DNA from: Eggerthella sp.
GTDB taxonomy: Bacteria > Actinomycetota > Coriobacteriia > Coriobacteriales > Eggerthellaceae
Length of the DNA stretch: 64,000 bases
Assembly (NCBI GenBank): GCA_030540085.1
Contig: JAUNWY010000002.1
Coordinates: 1-64,000 of the forward strand
Reading direction: 5' to 3'
Shown here: one piece after another, positions 47,489 through 56,762 of the stretch
How the letters are laid out: each line of letters starts with the position of its first letter
Position numbering within the stretch: the first letter of the stretch is position 1
Notes under the pieces: model-generated
What the model saw: only the letters and a program-made list of their open reading frames with translations
Databases searched by the model: none
What the model was told of the DNA's origin: nothing
Made by a program: the position numbers and the translations under genes

Positions 47489-48082
47489 ATGGACAACACC
47501 TCGGTATATGCACCCCTTGTTATGCAGGAAACCTGCGAAGGCCTGCGCCTCTATGACATTCGCGACGAAATGCTCGCCTCTCGAGAAATCGAACTTACCG
47601 GCCCCGTCGATGCCAGCTCGGTTGCCACCGCCGTTCGCTCTATGCTTCATCTTCAAAAAGAAGATCCCCATGCACCCATCACCCTTTTCATCAACAGCCC
47701 TGGCGGTGAAGTTCAATCAGGGCTGGCGTTATACGATGTGATGCAAGCCATCAGCTGCCCCGTGCACACCGTATGCCTCGGCATGGCCGCCAGCATGGCA
47801 GCGCTACTGTTTATAGCGGGCAGCGATCGTGGAATGCTGCCACATAGCCGCGTCATGATTCACGACCCCCTCATCGGCGGAGGCATTGGCGGAAGCGCAC
47901 TTTCAGTCAAAGCACGAGCAGACGATCTGATGCGCATTCGCGACATCACCGCCCAGGTTCTATCCCAGCACACCGGAATGAGCCTCGACAAAGTGTTTGA
48001 GCTCACCGCCCAAGATACCTATTTCGAGGCAGAGCAAGCTATAGAGGCGGGCTTGGCCGACCGCATCATCACGAGCCTGTAA
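47489..48082 (+). CDS. ClpP-like serine protease
   Basis: 197 residues, close to housekeeping ClpP length. The catalytic triad is Ser102 (GMAASMAAL), His125 (RVMIHDP) and Asp176. The handle and hydrophobic pockets appear intact. A divergent ClpP paralogue is implied by GMAASM (usually GQAASM) and MIHDP (usually MIHQP). No ClpX/ClpA gene is adjacent; the ATPase downstream is VirD4-like, not a Clp unfoldase. AAAGGA precedes the ATG. The gene leads an operon with the ATPase and a 191-residue unknown; similar pairings occur in conjugative elements, but no relaxase is here. Confidence 0.87.
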   Translation: MDNTSVYAPLVMQETCEGLRLYDIRDEMLASREIELTGPVDASSVATAVRSMLHLQKEDPHAPITLFINSPGGEVQSGLALYDVMQAISCPVHTVCLGMAASMAALLFIAGSDRGMLPHSRVMIHDPLIGGGIGGSALSVKARADDLMRIRDITAQVLSQHTGMSLDKVFELTAQDTYFEAEQAIEAGLADRIITSL

Positions 48083-48148
48083 TTACCAGATAGCACATGG
48101 AGTCTGCTGGCAAGCCTGCAGACTGAGCACATCAACCAAGGAGAACAC

Positions 48149-49531
48149 ATGAACACGAACAATTTCGCTGAAAACAACGCCCGTGAAGCATACCAAGGCA
48201 CCATCATCTTCACCGAACGCCACAGCGCAGATGCCGACAGCTGGAAAACGGGAATGAACAACAACATCTTAGTGCTGGGATGCTCCGGAAGCGGTAAAAC
48301 CCGAAACCACCTCAAGCCAAACCTCATGCAATGCAACGGTTCGTATATCGTGCTGGACACCAAGGGGAGCCTTTACGACGAAATGGGCGCTTTTCTTGCG
48401 CTGCAAGGTTACCAAGTAGATCAGCTGAACTTCACCACCATGGGCGGAACTTGCGGCTACGACCCGTTACACCAAGTCCGCTTCCAAGACGGCAGGCCCA
48501 ACCAGCAAGACATCATCGCTATTGCAAGCGCGATCTGCCCCCGGGAAGCGCAAAAATCCGATCCGTTTTGGGGGCTTGCCGCAGCCAACTATCTTTCAAG
48601 CTATATTGCCTTCGTATTCGAGGCGCTTCCCGAAGACGAGTGGAGCATGGCTTCCGTTATCAAGCTCTTCGAAAAGGGAGGCCGCGGAATCCAGAATCTA
48701 TTCGGTGACCTAGAGAAGAACAATCCCAACAGCTACGCTGTCTCCCTCTACAACCGCTCAAAAGCCACGTGCGTCGCAGAGAAAATGCACTCAAGCATTA
48801 TGGGCATCATCGCTGCGCATCTTCTGCCTTTCGGCTTCCAGGGTGCATTGGATTCGTACAGCAATCCCAATCGCATTGATTTCAGCTCATTCGGACGCGA
48901 GAAGCGAGCCCTATTCGTTACCGTCGATGACCTTGATCACAGCCTCGAAGGGCTAACAAGCCTCTTTGTCCAGCAAGCCTTCACTCATTTATGCGCCAGC
49001 GCCGATCACGATTACGCCGACCATAAGCTCCCCGTTCCCGTTCGCTTTATCTTGGACGATTTCGCGAATTTGAACCTTCCCCATATCGACGATGTGCTTG
49101 CGGTTATCCGAAGCCGCGAAATCAGCGCCACCATCATCTGCCAAACCGTGAGCCAGCTCGAGGCGAGATACGACATGGCTACCGCAAACTCCATTATCGG
49201 CAATTGCGATCGCCACCTGCTTCTAGCGGTCCAAGACGAAGCAACCGCCCGTTACTTCAGCCCCAGGGCCAACAAGCCGGCGTTCGCCCTGCTCGAAACG
49301 CCCGCTGATTCCTGGTGGTATTTCGAACGAGGCAAACGCGGCGTGCGCGACAACGCCTACCGTCTCGAGGAACACCCCGAGTACCCCTTTCTTCAGGCTA
49401 TTTTCGAATGCAAGCATCAAATAAGCCAGGATGGCCAATTCAAGCTCCGCTTTGAAGAGGAGGTTGCCCTGACCGACGAAGGCATCACCGATGCCGACCC
49501 CGCCATAAACACCGATTTCTTCGCCGCTTAA
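48149..49531 (+). CDS. Soluble VirD4/TraG-type ATPase
   Basis: 460 residues. Walker A GCSGSGKT is at 44-51, and the Walker B-like FILDDFANL near residue 303 and CQTVSQLEARY near 335 match VirD4-like coupling proteins (CD1115 group). Two N-terminal membrane helices that anchor VirD4 are missing: the chain starts only about 40 residues before the P-loop. It therefore cannot be an ordinary coupling protein. GGAGAAC precedes the ATG. It sits between a ClpP-like protease and an unknown gene, and no other type IV secretion genes are near. Confidence 0.85.
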   Translation: MNTNNFAENNAREAYQGTIIFTERHSADADSWKTGMNNNILVLGCSGSGKTRNHLKPNLMQCNGSYIVLDTKGSLYDEMGAFLALQGYQVDQLNFTTMGGTCGYDPLHQVRFQDGRPNQQDIIAIASAICPREAQKSDPFWGLAAANYLSSYIAFVFEALPEDEWSMASVIKLFEKGGRGIQNLFGDLEKNNPNSYAVSLYNRSKATCVAEKMHSSIMGIIAAHLLPFGFQGALDSYSNPNRIDFSSFGREKRALFVTVDDLDHSLEGLTSLFVQQAFTHLCASADHDYADHKLPVPVRFILDDFANLNLPHIDDVLAVIRSREISATIICQTVSQLEARYDMATANSIIGNCDRHLLLAVQDEATARYFSPRANKPAFALLETPADSWWYFERGKRGVRDNAYRLEEHPEYPFLQAIFECKHQISQDGQFKLRFEEEVALTDEGITDADPAINTDFFAA

Positions 49532-49541
49532 GGAGGCACCT

Positions 49542-50117
49542 ATGAACCCGAATCAGAACAAGTGCACTCTTGATCAGCTTCTTGAACATGCAGAATCTCA
49601 AGCCCTCGAAGACCGGCAAACAAGGTTTCGCGCCGAGCGCTTAAACGAGTTCAAAGGATCAGATATCTATCTGGACAACGCAAGCTCCATGATCGAACTC
49701 GTTGAACCCTTGCGGCAGCTGCTGCCCACCAAAGAAGAGTTCGATTCCTACGCAAATGGCAAACCCCTTTCGCAAGGCAACGATAGAACGCTTGAAGGCA
49801 TACGAAGGATCAAAAACCCTGCCATCGTCATGGTCGACGAAGCCCATCGCTGCGAAAAGGACGATTTCCACTCTTGGAGCAGCATGAGCGATGACTGCTG
49901 GGAAGGGCTGCTTGAGAGCGTTGATTTCATCAAGGACTTCTGGGAAGTAAACGAGTCGGCAAACACGCTCGAACTCGCAAAGGCCATTATCGTTCATACC
50001 GTTCTCTACGACGACGGGTTGAAAGATGAAGTATTCCATAAGGCTTCCGAAATGGTACGCATTATGACAATTCCCGCCAGCGACTTAAAAGCCTGGAAGG
50101 ACAACCTTCCCAAATAG
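49542..50117 (+). CDS. Unknown protein of the ClpP/VirD4 operon
   Basis: 191 residues, acidic and soluble; TKEEFDSYANGKPLSQ and KNPAIVMVDEAHRCEKDDFHSW are distinct segments, the second superficially resembling a DEAH box but without a P-loop, so it is not a helicase. No domain recognised. It begins 10 bases after the ATPase stop behind AGGAGG, so it belongs to the operon. A strong terminator follows at 50205-50236. Function unknown; an adaptor or substrate for the ClpP/ATPase pair is a guess. Confidence 0.75.
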   Translation: MNPNQNKCTLDQLLEHAESQALEDRQTRFRAERLNEFKGSDIYLDNASSMIELVEPLRQLLPTKEEFDSYANGKPLSQGNDRTLEGIRRIKNPAIVMVDEAHRCEKDDFHSWSSMSDDCWEGLLESVDFIKDFWEVNESANTLELAKAIIVHTVLYDDGLKDEVFHKASEMVRIMTIPASDLKAWKDNLPK

Positions 50118-50204
50118 ACAGACTAGCCCCGCCCTGCGCATAATGCCCACCCTGGCAACAACCAAGGCCGAAACAGGCACCAAACGAAACGGGGCTTTTG
50201 CCGT

Positions 50205-50237
50205 AAAGGAAGTGCGTCAGCGGACGCACTTCCTTTC
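50205..50237. terminator. Bidirectional terminator between the ClpP/VirD4 operon and the McrBC-like pair
   Basis: AAAGGAAGTGCGTC and GACGCACTTCCTTT form a perfect 14-base stem with a 4-base loop between convergent operons. Confidence 0.88.
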
Positions 50238-50324
50238 GCATGCAATGACGCTTCAAAGAAGAGCTCATCGGATACGTAAAAGACCAGATGGCGCACTATT
50301 CAGAATAGGTTCGCCGAGCCAGTC

Positions 50325-52268
50325 CTATTCAGTACCGATCCTCACAACATCAAGGAACTCAGGCAACGCATTTGCCCCTGGAGCTACCGCAGCAATGCCG
50401 TCTGGCGTAAAACGCTGCCCCAGAGCCCACGACGACTGCTGCAAGCTCTCCAAATAATACGATTGAGTCCTCCCACACAGTAGCCACAAAGCATCCACCG
50501 AGGCACCATTACTGCCGCATGTTTCCAGTTTGTATTTGCGCAGACACTCCAGCATGCAACTCTTGGCGTCGTTTTCCGAGCCGTCGAACTTCACCGCTGA
50601 TACCTTGCGGAACTTGGCGTCGAGCACCAGCGTCCTTGCGCCTTCGTGGGATTCGTGAACCATGAGGTAATCAGGCGTCCAATAAGAGTCGAAACCCGCA
50701 GAGGTCAACGTGGTTCGATGCAACGAAATGCCATGCTCCTCGCGCTCGTCACCATAAATAACCGGCTGGTAATACAGCGTTATACGCTCATCGCCACGAA
50801 CCAGGCGAAAGACCGTTGCGACCTGGGTTTCATTTTGAAAAAACCGCGAGTCAAGGCTATAGTGCGCCTGTTCGATAGGGTTAGCATCCAATGAACTGTT
50901 AGGCGAAAACCCTCTACCATGCAAAGCGGATAGCAGTTCGTAGAGCACATAATATTCGTAGAGCTTGTCCATCTTCCAGGTGTGCAGAACCATGCCATCA
51001 CGCTGCATTTGAAATTCGCCAAACGTATCCCATGCTCGCATGAGAGCATGGATTTCGGCATACGCAGGAATTTCCTGGAATGTCTTGGTTCGCTTCGGCA
51101 GGCGATAGCGAATGCAACGTACATCGGGCAACGCACGATCAAGCGCCTTGGCTATACTGCGCATTCTTTTACGGAGGGCAATTGCTTTGCGCAAAAGAGG
51201 TTGTTCTCGCTCAAAACACGTCCTCAGCATCAAGAGCACCGGGATCAGACCCTCGCCGTCATTAAGCCCTTCCAAGCGACTGATCATGGCTTCGATATGG
51301 GCAATATCATCCTGTGCTCCCTCGATGATGCGGCCAAGCGCCGCAGCAATCTCTTCGGCATAGGACAAAAGCGCTCGATTCTCCTTGGTGTCAAACGTCT
51401 TCCTGGGGCGCTTGGTACGCATACGGGCGGGAACAACATACCTGCCATTAATACGTAAGGGCGTTTTCGCATCCGTCGCGTGAAGCACATCAGGATTACT
51501 CGCCAACCAGAGCAATTCCTCGCGCCCCAAACGGCGCATTTGAAGAGGAGAAACCATGACATCAGTCTTCACGGTACGACAATGAGCATGGGTGCAGAAA
51601 TAATTGAGGTTTGCCTCGTATCCGCGAACCGCCCTTTCGCAAAGAGCAAGAAACGAGGAAAGCGATTCAGAGGAATCGGAAACCGTGCCCGACTCCACCA
51701 AGGCATATCTGCTTTCTCGAGCTTGGCCCTCGCCGAACATCCACCGAACTGCCTCGTCATCACTTCCCGAGATCAGGGTGTCAACCATACCCAGCACGGA
51801 AGCCTCTTGGTCATCCTTATCGCAGGCGCAAGCGATGTCCTTAGTTGAGAGAACCCACAGACCTTCCCCAGCCAGACCCACCTGAAGGGAGACCGATGCG
51901 AAACCGTAGGTCATAGAAAAAGGAAACCACTCATCTCCCTTCTCAAAATGCAGCTGGTAAAGATGCAGCTGGGAGCCCTGGAATTCTTCGATATGGTTAG
52001 CAACCACGCGAGCGCATAAGGCTATAGGCTCCTCTCCGTTGACCGACCATAAGATGCTCTCCTCTTCGGAAGAACCGAGAGGAGCATCGGTAGCCAATAG
52101 AGCACGATACCTATGCGATTCATGGACGATGCCTTCTGCGGCAAGATCTAAGGAAGCGGGTGCATAGTTTTCGAGCAGAGGAAAATCAACGCGGTCGCTG
52201 CTCGATGCATCCACCAAACGCAGCACCCAATTGTAAGAGCCGTTACGCAAAGTACTGGTAATAGCCAC
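50325..52268 (-). CDS. DUF2357 / McrC-like PD-(D/E)xK nuclease
   Basis: About 647 residues. The N-terminal DUF2357-type part is followed by an alpha-helical middle region and a C-terminal nuclease domain. There, YWTPDYLMV and LVLDAKFRK (about residues 535-555) give the PD and (D/E)xK catalytic residues. It should cut DNA or RNA under control of the AAA+ partner encoded upstream, as McrC does with McrB. The start is uncertain: the upstream gene stops at 52243, and GTG at 52268, GTG at 52301 or TTG at 52250 are possible; I give 52268. The genes overlap, so translation is coupled. Confidence 0.8.
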   Translation of the reverse strand: MAITSTLRNGSYNWVLRLVDASSSDRVDFPLLENYAPASLDLAAEGIVHESHRYRALLATDAPLGSSEEESILWSVNGEEPIALCARVVANHIEEFQGSQLHLYQLHFEKGDEWFPFSMTYGFASVSLQVGLAGEGLWVLSTKDIACACDKDDQEASVLGMVDTLISGSDDEAVRWMFGEGQARESRYALVESGTVSDSSESLSSFLALCERAVRGYEANLNYFCTHAHCRTVKTDVMVSPLQMRRLGREELLWLASNPDVLHATDAKTPLRINGRYVVPARMRTKRPRKTFDTKENRALLSYAEEIAAALGRIIEGAQDDIAHIEAMISRLEGLNDGEGLIPVLLMLRTCFEREQPLLRKAIALRKRMRSIAKALDRALPDVRCIRYRLPKRTKTFQEIPAYAEIHALMRAWDTFGEFQMQRDGMVLHTWKMDKLYEYYVLYELLSALHGRGFSPNSSLDANPIEQAHYSLDSRFFQNETQVATVFRLVRGDERITLYYQPVIYGDEREEHGISLHRTTLTSAGFDSYWTPDYLMVHESHEGARTLVLDAKFRKVSAVKFDGSENDAKSCMLECLRKYKLETCGSNGASVDALWLLCGRTQSYYLESLQQSSWALGQRFTPDGIAAVAPGANALPEFLDVVRIGTE

Positions 52269-54837
52269 TGTCTTCGCCAGCCTCAAGCATGTGATCGACA
52301 CGAGCCTTGGTCAACGGAAGATTGCTTACCAAGGAAAGTTCTTCGAGCAGAGCCCCTAAGCGCTCTTCGGTGCCCGAAAGAACCGGAAGCACTTTTTGCG
52401 CAATGGCGTAATCAACGGGAGCATATTGGGTTTGCGCAGACGAGCAATCCATAACACTCGCCGCTGTGCAAGCATATGAAAGCATCATTTTCTGGCTACG
52501 CGGACTTACGGGGTAGCGATGACGAGCACATAGCTCGACCACTTCCTTCAGCTTCGCCTCAAGCTCAACACTTAACAAGGCATTGCTCCTTGGGCCGAAA
52601 GCCGCCTGAAGAGCCTGATACGAATAGACACTCGCGTCCTTGTAGTTGAAGGGAACCAAGGGATCGCCAAGGTCATCCAAATCCAAAGCTTGCGGATCGA
52701 GGGTAACCACCCAGCTGCGATCCAAGAAACGAGGCGACAACTCCTCGGTTGTATGGTCGAAGTTTACGGTCGCGATAAAACGCAAGTAGCTCGGAACCTT
52801 GAAGGAATGGTTTCCGCCCAAAGAAAGCTCGAACGAACCACCACGGAAGGAATCGCAGGCGCGCAAAAACGGCGACCAATAGTGCTCGATAGAGCTGAGG
52901 TTCGCCTCGTCAAGTAGGAACAAATATGGTGCCGCATCGCTATCCGCAACCCCCTGTTCACATTCGGAATTCAAAAGTGAGAGCGCATCGAATGCAACGG
53001 GGTTGGACTTTTCGAGCGACTCGCTAAAGGGATTGTAGTAGCCGATAAAGTCTTTGTAGGAAGTCCAGCCTTTTTCAACCGGCACCTCAACAAAGCGCTT
53101 CGAAGCGGCATTTTTCAAGCCAAGAACCTCAGCGAGGATATTCACGAGAGACGTTTTGCCGGTACCGGGCAAACCGGCAAGAGTTGTAATGTAGCCCTGA
53201 GTAAGGCAAATGAGCACATTGGCAAGATCGTTTTTGGGAATATCACGGCCGTACGACGCGCCGATAAGGTCATCGAGCTTCGAAAGCAAAGCCCCAGCAT
53301 CAGACCCATCCTCCTCGGAAAGCAATGGCTCAACGGAGGGAGCAGCGTAGAGGCGCTCCCCGCCATCACCCACATGCTCAGATCCCGACATTCCACCTAC
53401 CGTAGAAACAACCTGCTTCAATGCCGCGTTCTCAAGTACTCGGCCCATCAAAACTTCTTCATTTGAAAAGGAAGACACCAGTTCGTCGATTTGACGCTGC
53501 ACCGATTCCTTGCCACGTTCCAAGCTGTCTTTTTGCTCTTTAAGGGCATGGACCTCTTCAACTAGTTTGTCTCGCTCCCCCTGGACGATCTTGACATGCG
53601 ACGACATTTCTTCTTCGAAACGCTTACGACGCAGGTCGAGTTCGTCGTCAAATCGCTTGAGCTCATCTTGCACGTGGCTCAGCGATTCCTGAGCCTGTTT
53701 TGCAGCAGCCTGAGCCTCCGCGGCTTCCGCGGCATATTGCGCCTTTTCCTTTTCAACCCGTTGACGCACCTGGTCACTTTCAAGGACCTTATCGTAGAAC
53801 GACCTGAAATGCTCATTAGAGAGCACATATTCAGCCAGCTGCTGAGGGTCGGCATTCTCGATGGCAGAATCCCTTACCGATTCAGGAAGCGTCGACCAGC
53901 TTTCGTAGGTGTCAAGAAGGCCCAACATACGCTCGCGGCGCTCGGGAGTTAGGGCAATTTTCGCATCTTCATCGAGACAGGCGGCAATCTCGCTTTTCAA
54001 AGCGCGCATTTGACCCTTCGTTAAGGGTGTTTCGCCCGAACGAGAAATCCTGCCCAAGGCATCGAGGAGATCTTTATCGGTGATCCAATCAAAAAGGCTG
54101 TCGGAGGCAGCTACATGGGCATCAAGCTCTTCTGCACTGACGTATTGAGCAACCATATTGCCCAGATCGTCAACAAGATCAATGGAGAAGACAAATTCGC
54201 TCTCATCGAAAACACCAATACGTAAATCGCAGGAATTGCTGGCCTGCAGCTGGACAGCAGTCCCTTCAACACAGGTTGCCTCAAAAGGTCCGTAGTACTT
54301 GCGTTCGCCCAACTTGCCTTGGGAAACCACGACAAGCTTTGTTTGCGGAAGAGACGCAACCGAGCGGACGTGAACCGGCTGTGCCTGGGCATGGGTTAAA
54401 TCGACGATTTCCTGAACATCAAGCACCTGCACCAATGAACCGGAAAGGGAATGCCGAGAAAGGGGCATGAATTCAACCGACGAAGCACCCTTGGCAAAGT
54501 AAGGATCAATGATGCTGTTGAAGCGTGATGTTTCGCTCTCTGGGTAATTGCGATTGCGGCCAGGATGCTCGTCGTTCACCCTCATGACAACAACATTGCC
54601 AAACATATCAAGCAACTCATGGGGAGTAGTACGACTCGTAACCATGGGAAGGCAACCATTGTCGGGGAAGGCGCTGTCCTCAAGGAGCGTAAGCGTCTCG
54701 TCATCTACCAAAAACTGGGGGTATGCAAAGCATCGAGTAGCACCCTTAAAAGAGGGGTAGCTAACATACGTGAGCAAATCACGGCGAACGCATTCCTGAA
54801 AAGTGCCAATTTCGCCTTCGGAGAGAACCATACCCAT
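52243..54837 (-). CDS. McrB-like AAA+ ATPase with central coiled coil
   Basis: 864 residues. Residues 1-340 are of unknown fold; about 356-452 form a long coiled coil (heptad-like Glu/Lys/Leu repeats). The AAA+ domain has Walker A GLPGTGKTS near 556, Walker B LFLLDEANLSS near 638, and sensor/arginine region ATVNFDHTTEELSPRFLDR near 700. With the downstream PD-(D/E)xK gene it forms an McrBC-type restriction unit; coiled-coil McrB proteins with tandem nucleases have been called CoCoNuT systems, a possible match. The usual McrB GTP signature NxxDR is changed. It is probably a phage-defence system. Confidence 0.85.
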   Translation of the reverse strand: MGMVLSEGEIGTFQECVRRDLLTYVSYPSFKGATRCFAYPQFLVDDETLTLLEDSAFPDNGCLPMVTSRTTPHELLDMFGNVVVMRVNDEHPGRNRNYPESETSRFNSIIDPYFAKGASSVEFMPLSRHSLSGSLVQVLDVQEIVDLTHAQAQPVHVRSVASLPQTKLVVVSQGKLGERKYYGPFEATCVEGTAVQLQASNSCDLRIGVFDESEFVFSIDLVDDLGNMVAQYVSAEELDAHVAASDSLFDWITDKDLLDALGRISRSGETPLTKGQMRALKSEIAACLDEDAKIALTPERRERMLGLLDTYESWSTLPESVRDSAIENADPQQLAEYVLSNEHFRSFYDKVLESDQVRQRVEKEKAQYAAEAAEAQAAAKQAQESLSHVQDELKRFDDELDLRRKRFEEEMSSHVKIVQGERDKLVEEVHALKEQKDSLERGKESVQRQIDELVSSFSNEEVLMGRVLENAALKQVVSTVGGMSGSEHVGDGGERLYAAPSVEPLLSEEDGSDAGALLSKLDDLIGASYGRDIPKNDLANVLICLTQGYITTLAGLPGTGKTSLVNILAEVLGLKNAASKRFVEVPVEKGWTSYKDFIGYYNPFSESLEKSNPVAFDALSLLNSECEQGVADSDAAPYLFLLDEANLSSIEHYWSPFLRACDSFRGGSFELSLGGNHSFKVPSYLRFIATVNFDHTTEELSPRFLDRSWVVTLDPQALDLDDLGDPLVPFNYKDASVYSYQALQAAFGPRSNALLSVELEAKLKEVVELCARHRYPVSPRSQKMMLSYACTAASVMDCSSAQTQYAPVDYAIAQKVLPVLSGTEERLGALLEELSLVSNLPLTKARVDHMLEAGEDSGYYQYFA

Positions 54838-55148: not shown

Positions 55149-56762
55149 ATGTCAAGCATGCAAGAAGAAATCGCCTCAAGGCGCACTTTTGCCATCATCT
55201 CCCATCCTGACGCCGGCAAAACAACTCTCACCGAAAAGCTGCTTTTGTACACCGGCAGCATCCAAACTGCCGGTTCGGTTAAGGGAAAAAGCAGCTCCAA
55301 GCACGCCGTTTCCGACTGGATGGATATCGAAAAGGAACGCGGCATTTCCGTAACCTCTTCGGTTCTGCAGTTTAACTACGATGGTTGCTGCGTAAACATC
55401 CTGGATACCCCTGGACACCAAGACTTTTCCGAAGATACCTATCGCACCCTCATGGCCGCTGATGCCGCCGTTATGGTAATCGATGCCGCAAAGGGCGTAG
55501 AGGCCCAGACCAAGAAGCTCTTCAAGGTTTGCACCTTGCGCCATATTCCCATCTTCACATTCGTGAACAAGCTTGACCGCGAAGCCCGCGATCCATTTGA
55601 GCTTATGGAAGAAATCGAAACGGTGCTGGGCATTGGCACGTATCCCATGAACTGGCCCATCGGCTGCGGTCGCAACTTCCGTGGCGTGTTCGATCGTCGC
55701 ACGCGTCACGTCATCGCCTTTGACGGCGAAGGACGCGGCAATTCTTCGAAGAAGGTTCAGGAAATCGAAGCCGAACTGGGCGATTCAGCCCTTGACGATC
55801 TTATCGGCGAAGACAACCACAACAACCTGATGGACGATATCGAGCTTCTCGACGGCGCAGGCGACGAACTCGACCTGGAAGCCGTACGCAACGGCAAACT
55901 TTCGCCAGTATTCTTCGGTTCGGCCCTAACCAACTTCGGCGTAGAGCCCTTCCTGAAAGGGTTCCTGGAGCTGGCGCCCACACCGCGCGCCTACAACGAC
56001 TGCCTTACCGACACGCCAGTTGATCCTATGACGGAATCCTTCTCGGGCTTCGTGTTCAAAATCCAGGCGAACATGGACAAGAACCATCGCGACCGCATTG
56101 CCTTCGTACGCATCTGCTCGGGCAAGTTCGAGCGAGGCATGGAAGCCTACCATATGCAGGGAAAGAAGAAGCTGAAGCTTGCTACCGGCACTTCGCTCAT
56201 GGCCGACGACCGCGCTATTGTCGATGAAGCCTACGCAGGCGATATCGTGGGCTTGTTCGATCCGGGCATCTTCTCTATCGGTGACACCGTGTGCGCTGCA
56301 AAGAACAAGGTGCAGTTCCCCGCTATTCCTATGTTCGCGCCTGAAATCTTCGCTAAGGTCTCGCAGGTAAACACGCTTAAACGCAAGCAATTTGTAAAGG
56401 GCATGGAACAGCTTGCTCAAGAAGGCGCCATCCAGATTTTCCGCGAGCTTGGTGCTGGTATGGAAAGCGTTATCGTAGGTGCTGTAGGTGTTCTTCAATT
56501 CGAGGTTTTGGAACAGCGCTTGAAAAACGAATACAATGTCGAGGTTCGAAGGCAGGGGCTGCCCTACTCGATTATCCGTTGGGTAGCAAATCCCGAAGAA
56601 GTTGATGTTCCGAAGCTGAACCTTACTCACGACACCTATCGTGTAGAAAACATGCGTGGCGAAAAGTTGCTGTTGTTTACCAGCGAATGGAACTTGCGTT
56701 ACGGCATCGAGCACAATCCGAACTTAAAGCTTTCTGAGTTTGGTAACGTTTCCTTCAAATAG
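55149..56762 (+). CDS. prfC: Peptide chain release factor 3
   Basis: 537 residues. The GTPase G1 ISHPDAGKTTLTEKL is at 17-31; G2/G3 are ISVTSSVLQF and DTPGHQDFSEDTYR, where the latter is diagnostic of RF3; G4 is NKLD near residue 140. It removes RF1 and RF2 from the ribosome after termination. GAAGGA precedes the ATG. Domains II and III follow at expected positions. The gene closes the right edge of the island and is likely core genome. A strong terminator follows. Confidence 0.96.
   Translation: MSSMQEEIASRRTFAIISHPDAGKTTLTEKLLLYTGSIQTAGSVKGKSSSKHAVSDWMDIEKERGISVTSSVLQFNYDGCCVNILDTPGHQDFSEDTYRTLMAADAAVMVIDAAKGVEAQTKKLFKVCTLRHIPIFTFVNKLDREARDPFELMEEIETVLGIGTYPMNWPIGCGRNFRGVFDRRTRHVIAFDGEGRGNSSKKVQEIEAELGDSALDDLIGEDNHNNLMDDIELLDGAGDELDLEAVRNGKLSPVFFGSALTNFGVEPFLKGFLELAPTPRAYNDCLTDTPVDPMTESFSGFVFKIQANMDKNHRDRIAFVRICSGKFERGMEAYHMQGKKKLKLATGTSLMADDRAIVDEAYAGDIVGLFDPGIFSIGDTVCAAKNKVQFPAIPMFAPEIFAKVSQVNTLKRKQFVKGMEQLAQEGAIQIFRELGAGMESVIVGAVGVLQFEVLEQRLKNEYNVEVRRQGLPYSIIRWVANPEEVDVPKLNLTHDTYRVENMRGEKLLLFTSEWNLRYGIEHNPNLKLSEFGNVSFK

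Follow-up and report, generated by a model that had tools for sequence, protein, structure and literature searches.

Can a soluble ATPase of the type that drives conjugation serve a ClpP protease, or is the operon that encodes both a leftover of a conjugative element? The question is raised by a locus of Eggerthella sp. (GCA_030540085.1, contig JAUNWY010000002.1), of which positions 1 to 64,000 were analysed; this stretch of 64,000 nucleotides is called the window below, and the genome it comes from is about 80% complete. The features of the locus are as follows.

47489-48082, + strand: accessory ClpP, 197 aa; Pfam PF00574 (CLP_protease), E = 7.6e-52
48149-49531, + strand: VirD4/T4CP-type ATPase without a membrane anchor, 460 aa; PF02534, E = 1.4e-36; TraG-D_C, E = 1.1e-19
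49436-49528, + strand: C-terminal tail of the ATPase, disordered (pLDDT below 50 for residues 429-460), with Ala-Ala as its last residues
49530-49536, + strand: AAGGAGG, the ribosome-binding site for the third gene, which overlaps the stop codon of the ATPase gene; read from the sequence
49542-50117, + strand: third protein, 191 aa, predicted helical
50205-50236, no strand: 14-bp perfect hairpin between convergent operons; fold of 50180-50260, -33 kcal/mol, z -3.86
50325-54837, - strand: facing two-gene operon, DUF2357/PDDEXK_7 nuclease (658 aa) and AAA protein (864 aa)

Organization of the operon

The clpP, ATPase and third genes are tightly spaced in one orientation (+). The original prediction had linked the starts to AGGAGG, which holds for the third gene (AAGGAGG) but not for the other two (AAGGAG and AAAGGA). 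It had also proposed a shared terminator. A strong hairpin does lie between the convergent operons, but it lacks a T-run and the terminator scan has no entry for it; the hairpin is probably a bidirectional terminator of both operons. In the facing operon, the AAA protein is similar to PADLOC PDC-M26A, and the operon is a McrBC-like candidate defence pair.

The ATPase is a T4CP-type motor without a membrane anchor

The window ATPase carries the Walker A motif GCSGSGKT and the Walker B motif LDDFA, and it scored 265.7 bits against the NCBIfam VirD4-like conjugal transfer family CD1115, just over the cut-off of 250. By name alone, carriers of such an ATPase could thus be credited with a conjugation that they lack. 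Its highest 19-residue mean hydropathy is 1.45, that is, no membrane helix, whereas in most conjugative relatives a segment at the N-terminus, upstream of the matched domain, reaches about 1.5-2.9. The AlphaFold2 model (pLDDT 85) starts directly with the motor domain, comprises nucleotide-binding and all-alpha domains and is disordered beyond residue 428. Hydropathy and the start of the model thus bear out the earlier reading of a VirD4/TraG-type ATPase without membrane helices. The closest solved folds found by Foldseek were CagBeta (E = 8.9e-15) and TrwB (E = 8.7e-13), then VirB4, and then HerA-type defence motors (HerA, E = 1.4e-7).

The Walker B motif LDDFA was invariant in the alignment of these ATPases, and the conjugative relatives in which the motif was read have LDEFA instead; with LDDFA in place of LDEFA, ATP hydrolysis may be slow. 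Since the genome scan described below used the pattern PVRxxLDDFA, the constancy of LDDFA among the 80 loci it supplied partly reflects this choice of pattern; neither the Eggerthellaceae set nor the adjacency of ClpP is affected by the bias. Neither an IGF-like nor another ClpP-docking motif was identified in the window ATPase.

Conservation and spread of the ClpP-ATPase pair

A scan of 85,000 species genomes gave 259 relatives, and the best 80 of these 259 were retrieved as loci. They came from Coriobacteriia (Collinsella, Slackia, Senegalimassilia, Ellagibacter and Olsenella), Lachnospiraceae, Oscillospiraceae, Erysipelotrichaceae, one Bifidobacterium and others. In 76 of these best 80, a ClpP gene adjoined the ATPase gene on the same strand (66 upstream and 10 downstream), typically with a gap of about 40 bp. 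The four others comprise L058, which is divided between two contigs, L078 and L119, where the contig ends, and the Bifidobacterium locus L105, the sole true exception among the best 80. A separate search of 138 Eggerthellaceae genomes found the ATPase next to ClpP in 12 further loci with differing chromosomal surroundings. The reverse test gave the same association: each of the 13 Eggerthellaceae ClpPs that share 49% identity or more with the window ClpP adjoins the ATPase, and the housekeeping ClpPs of the family are at most 44% identical to it. The pair recurs across Coriobacteriia, Clostridia and Erysipelotrichia, almost always without conjugation genes nearby, the check that had been proposed for the original prediction, and its distribution is patchy even inside the genus of the window.

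In Collinsella, the clpP and ATPase frames are coupled, with an overlap of 8 bases and the ribosome-binding site inside clpP. In one Collinsella aerofaciens strain (L067:5380-7302), a one-base deletion places both in a single open frame; this may be a sequencing error, although a fusion of clpP and the ATPase is evidently possible. The cassette was also seen near prfC (release factor 3) in the window (55149-56762) and in L032:5836-7524, L035:6432-8096 and L040:11399-13204, the cassette being incomplete in L040. The prfC neighbourhood is possibly a hot spot or the ancestral site of the cassette; a comparison of the site within the genus found relatives without a PrfC match at the set limit.

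The pair is no remnant of conjugation

The original prediction would fall if the homologous loci were complete conjugative elements, of which the window operon would then be a remnant after random gene loss. Conjugation genes were sought as PF03432 relaxases and PF12846 matches around 50 ATPase loci of 43 genomes, over a range limited by the contigs of metagenome-assembled genomes. A PF03432 relaxase was found within 20 kb of the ATPase at one of the 50 loci (L109 in G168), and 16 of the 43 genomes have none at all. The VirB4-type AAA_10 matches above the cut-off likewise lie outside these neighbourhoods; the closest of them, in G168, is weak and 22 kb distant. The L109 pair (G168:C13:31768-36478) is the only one with a relaxase about 3 kb off, and it may lie in a mobile element. 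In the window genome itself, the earlier statement that conjugation genes are absent held for a second VirD4, which the assembly lacks, but one relaxase (G000:C12:241465-241857) lies about 193 kb off on the same contig, perhaps in a mobilizable element.

A maximum-likelihood tree was built from 93 ATPases, 58 linked to ClpP and 35 conjugative VirD4s. A branch with 99% SH-aLRT support separates all 58 ClpP-linked ATPases from the 35 conjugative VirD4s. Within the tree, the Collinsella ATPases are nested among those of Eggerthellaceae, and L041, from Eggerthellaceae, clusters with Lachnospiraceae; these placements indicate horizontal spread.

A decayed conjugative element could account for the ATPase passing the CD1115 cut-off, and one relative, L109, has a relaxase 3 kb off and a weak VirB4-type match 22 kb off. 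Against this, the same two to three genes recur with intact frames in different contexts, at 49 of the 50 loci the 20 kb on either side of the ATPase hold no PF03432 relaxase, and the ClpP-linked ATPases form a single-sided clade. Given the pairing with ClpP, the scarcity of relaxase and VirB4 and the shape of the tree, we rejected this reading as very improbable. An origin in prophages or phages was also rejected: the pair occurred in just one UViG (L159), which is nearly identical to a chromosomal locus, and the phage database matches are ordinary VirD4s of about 25-35% identity. The plasmid database likewise held only ordinary VirD4s of less than 60% identity.

The accessory ClpP keeps its triad and has a remodelled docking surface

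The catalytic triad of the window ClpP (S102/H125/D176) aligns to E. coli S97/H122/D171, so that the complete triad noted earlier stands. The genome also holds a normal housekeeping tig-clpP-clpX operon, its clpP (G000:C12:184800-185345) being 137 kb away, and the window ClpP is therefore an extra copy. With 162.6 bits, it falls below the cut-off of the canonical ClpP equivalog TIGR00493 (308.6).

An alignment was made of 71 accessory ClpPs with E. coli ClpP and the housekeeping copy. The Ser, His and Asp of the triad are conserved in 71, 71 and 70 of the 71 accessory proteins. The positions F82, F112 and Y60 we take to be the dock for the IGF loops of ClpX and ClpA. F82 is replaced by a non-aromatic residue in all 71, the F112 position is acidic (Glu or Asp) in 57, and the Y60 position is Thr in 64; in 69, Asp directly follows the catalytic His. 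The window ClpP carries 'IHDP' and has likewise lost the aromatics of the pocket. To judge from the alignment, the hydrophobic IGF-loop pocket of canonical ClpP is lost in the accessory ClpPs, and triad-intact ClpPs without F82 of the docking pocket (71 of 71) are a new observation here. An altered docking surface makes a canonical IGF-loop partner unlikely and is what would be expected of a ClpP with a different partner.

Third protein and optional fourth gene

The third protein matched no family in Pfam or NCBIfam, in agreement with its first description as an unfamiliar protein, and its AlphaFold2 model (pLDDT 56) was of low confidence and too poor for a structure search. In an iterative profile search, the significant relatives of the window-type third protein were found solely beside ClpP-ATPase pairs, among others in Solobacterium, a member of another phylum. 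A second family, named X, emerged from an iterative profile search of all open reading frames in 81 loci, seeded with a small protein that in Clostridia is encoded upstream of ClpP. All 49 matches are on the same strand as the ATPase and within about 1.3 kb of it, and by six-frame search the X family is present in 62 of 87 loci. Most loci thus have a small third protein of either the window type or the X family, and some have neither; no locus was found with both. Both types often start with an [I/L][S/P]LxERL-like motif, but homology between them was not shown (hhalign, 13.7%) and was set aside.

An optional fourth gene (family C3/C16) was observed beside the pair in Eggerthellaceae and Solobacterium (L035:8299-9120, L037:3181-3831 and L084:7374-8120). 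Its GxD...FQVKT motif recalls PD-(D/E)XK enzymes by eye, and the family has neither a Pfam nor a PADLOC match.

A possible motor-protease and the alternatives

That ClpP, the ATPase and the small protein work as a unit is strongly supported, and the recurrence of the ClpP-ATPase pair in dozens of gut bacteria, mostly with conjugation genes missing from its surroundings, suggests a molecular machine that has not been described, possibly a new kind of energy-driven protease. We found no prior description of a ClpP-VirD4 pair in the open-access literature, nor a case of the T4CP superfamily driving ClpP. We regard it as an even call that a soluble T4CP motor domain has here been recruited to its own ClpP, within an accessory operon that is conserved and has spread horizontally, giving a motor-protease or an ATP-gated protease. 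The ATPase would form a hexamer, as T4CPs do, and the ring would stack on the ClpP barrel, or engage it otherwise, through a non-canonical interface. It would then unfold substrates and thread them into ClpP, or gate ClpP activity, and the small helical third protein could be an adaptor or substrate selector. A relaxase that is the substrate of a type IV secretion system must unfold to pass through it (PMC5826034), which makes an unfoldase role of a T4CP-type motor mechanistically reasonable. The central part of the original prediction, a soluble coupling-protein ATPase repurposed and tied to ClpP, gains from the cross-phylum pairing, the single-sided clade, the reciprocal association, the remodelled dock and the recurrent third gene; its other part, that the ATPase feeds ClpP, we infer, as we do the hexamer, the physical complex and the adaptor role.

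What such a machine would act on is a separate matter. A role against mobile elements, in which relaxases or incoming DNA would be recognised by the soluble T4CP-like ring, much as by a coupling protein, and the ring would activate ClpP or feed it, with either the protein of the invader or, abortively, host proteins being degraded, is compatible with the motor-protease reading, and we consider it rather unlikely. A patchy occurrence that shows inside a single family and even a single genus, horizontal spread on the ATPase tree, HerA-type defence ATPases among the fold neighbours, the nuclease-like motif of the optional fourth gene and some Abi_2, GajB-like or Mokosh-like neighbours all speak for it. 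In a count of PADLOC families, which is a crude measure, the neighbours showed no enrichment in defence families: 111 neighbour proteins gave 68 and 109 control proteins from the same contigs gave 72. PADLOC has no model for the ClpP-ATPase pair, and many loci adjoin plasmid replication genes instead, several Clostridia copies lying next to RepL, DUF5688 or DnaB-like helicases. The McrBC-like operon facing the window operon, offered earlier as support for defence, does not recur as a partner across the mapped loci, and support for the defence proposal does not go beyond circumstance. A defence or anti-conjugation role is attractive but unproven. The more specific proposal of a first ATP-dependent protease against mobile elements driven by a T4CP (HerA-FtsK superfamily), in which the soluble mimic of a coupling protein takes hold of relaxases or element DNA and hands the protein over to its dedicated ClpP rather than to a secretion channel, we hold to be unlikely. 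Among individual neighbours, an Abi_2 abortive-infection-like gene (L051:3887-4849) lies close upstream of the cassette in Senegalimassilia, a Mokosh-like large SF1 helicase lies near the two most divergent pairs (L046:15355-19854 and L045:2665-7017), and related helicases lie near L076, L082, L088 and L112.

Two further alternatives leave the ATPase without a role in feeding ClpP. The C-terminal Ala-Ala of the window ATPase (49523-49528), an ending that resembles an ssrA-type degron and is found in about half of Coriobacteriia, could mean that ClpP regulates the ATPase, which would do DNA work alone and be kept at a low level by Clp proteolysis until released. Twelve of 23 Coriobacteriia ATPases end in this way, on a disordered tail, compared with 6 of 314 other open reading frames (Fisher p = 6e-12). 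None of 49 Clostridia ATPases does so (13 of the 49 end in a single Ala), and turnover by ClpXP needs no dedicated ClpP, which leaves this explanation improbable; a search for the tmRNA tag, for comparison with the -AA tail, gave no match above the Rfam cut-off. Alternatively, accessory and housekeeping ClpP could form mixed barrels driven by ClpX or ClpC, with the ATPase serving another step. Mycobacteria offer a precedent, MtbClpP1 and ClpP2 forming mixed barrels in which one ClpP ring has no usable dock, and the loss of the pocket in the accessory ClpP of a genome with a normal tig-clpP-clpX operon fits as well. The exclusive, phylum-wide linkage to the ATPase and the recurrent third gene are left unexplained by mixed barrels, to which we assign a similarly low probability.

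If the motor-protease reading is right and ClpP has swapped Hsp100 for a conjugation motor, a different ATPase superfamily is able to power compartmental proteases. The ClpP-ATPase system is common among Actinomycetota and Bacillota of the human and animal gut.

Comparison with known systems

The window ATPase shares with the type IV coupling proteins (VirD4, TrwB and CagBeta; CD1115) the fold of nucleotide-binding and all-alpha domains, the Walker A motif and TraG-D_C. It differs from them in having no N-terminal membrane helices and in its Walker B motif (LDDFA, not LDEFA), and the ClpP-linked ATPases have neither relaxase nor VirB4 nearby and almost always have ClpP. The ClpP partners known so far are AAA+ Hsp100 proteins, and T4CPs are not AAA+ proteins. 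With ClpXP, ClpAP and ClpCP, the window pair has in common a triad-intact ClpP beside a P-loop ATPase; unlike them, it has a T4CP-type ATPase in place of an AAA+ Hsp100 protein, its ClpP has lost the aromatic pocket, and no ClpX or ClpC is present in the operon. As in the MtbClpP1-ClpP2 system, an additional ClpP offers no usable dock to AAA+ partners, but the mycobacterial system has no linked T4CP-type ATPase gene. The HerA-effector defence complexes such as DUF4297-HerA (PMC11291478), in which a related ring ATPase of the HerA-FtsK superfamily is encoded beside an oligomeric effector enzyme, are a partial parallel: the window ATPase has the fold of this superfamily, and the type of effector differs. 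No defence activity is known for the ClpP-ATPase pair, its effector is a protease, and its ATPase is of the T4CP type, closer in fold to CagBeta than to HerA by the Foldseek values given above. If the proposed machine exists, the HerA/VirD4-type machines, now known mostly with nucleases, would gain a protease branch.
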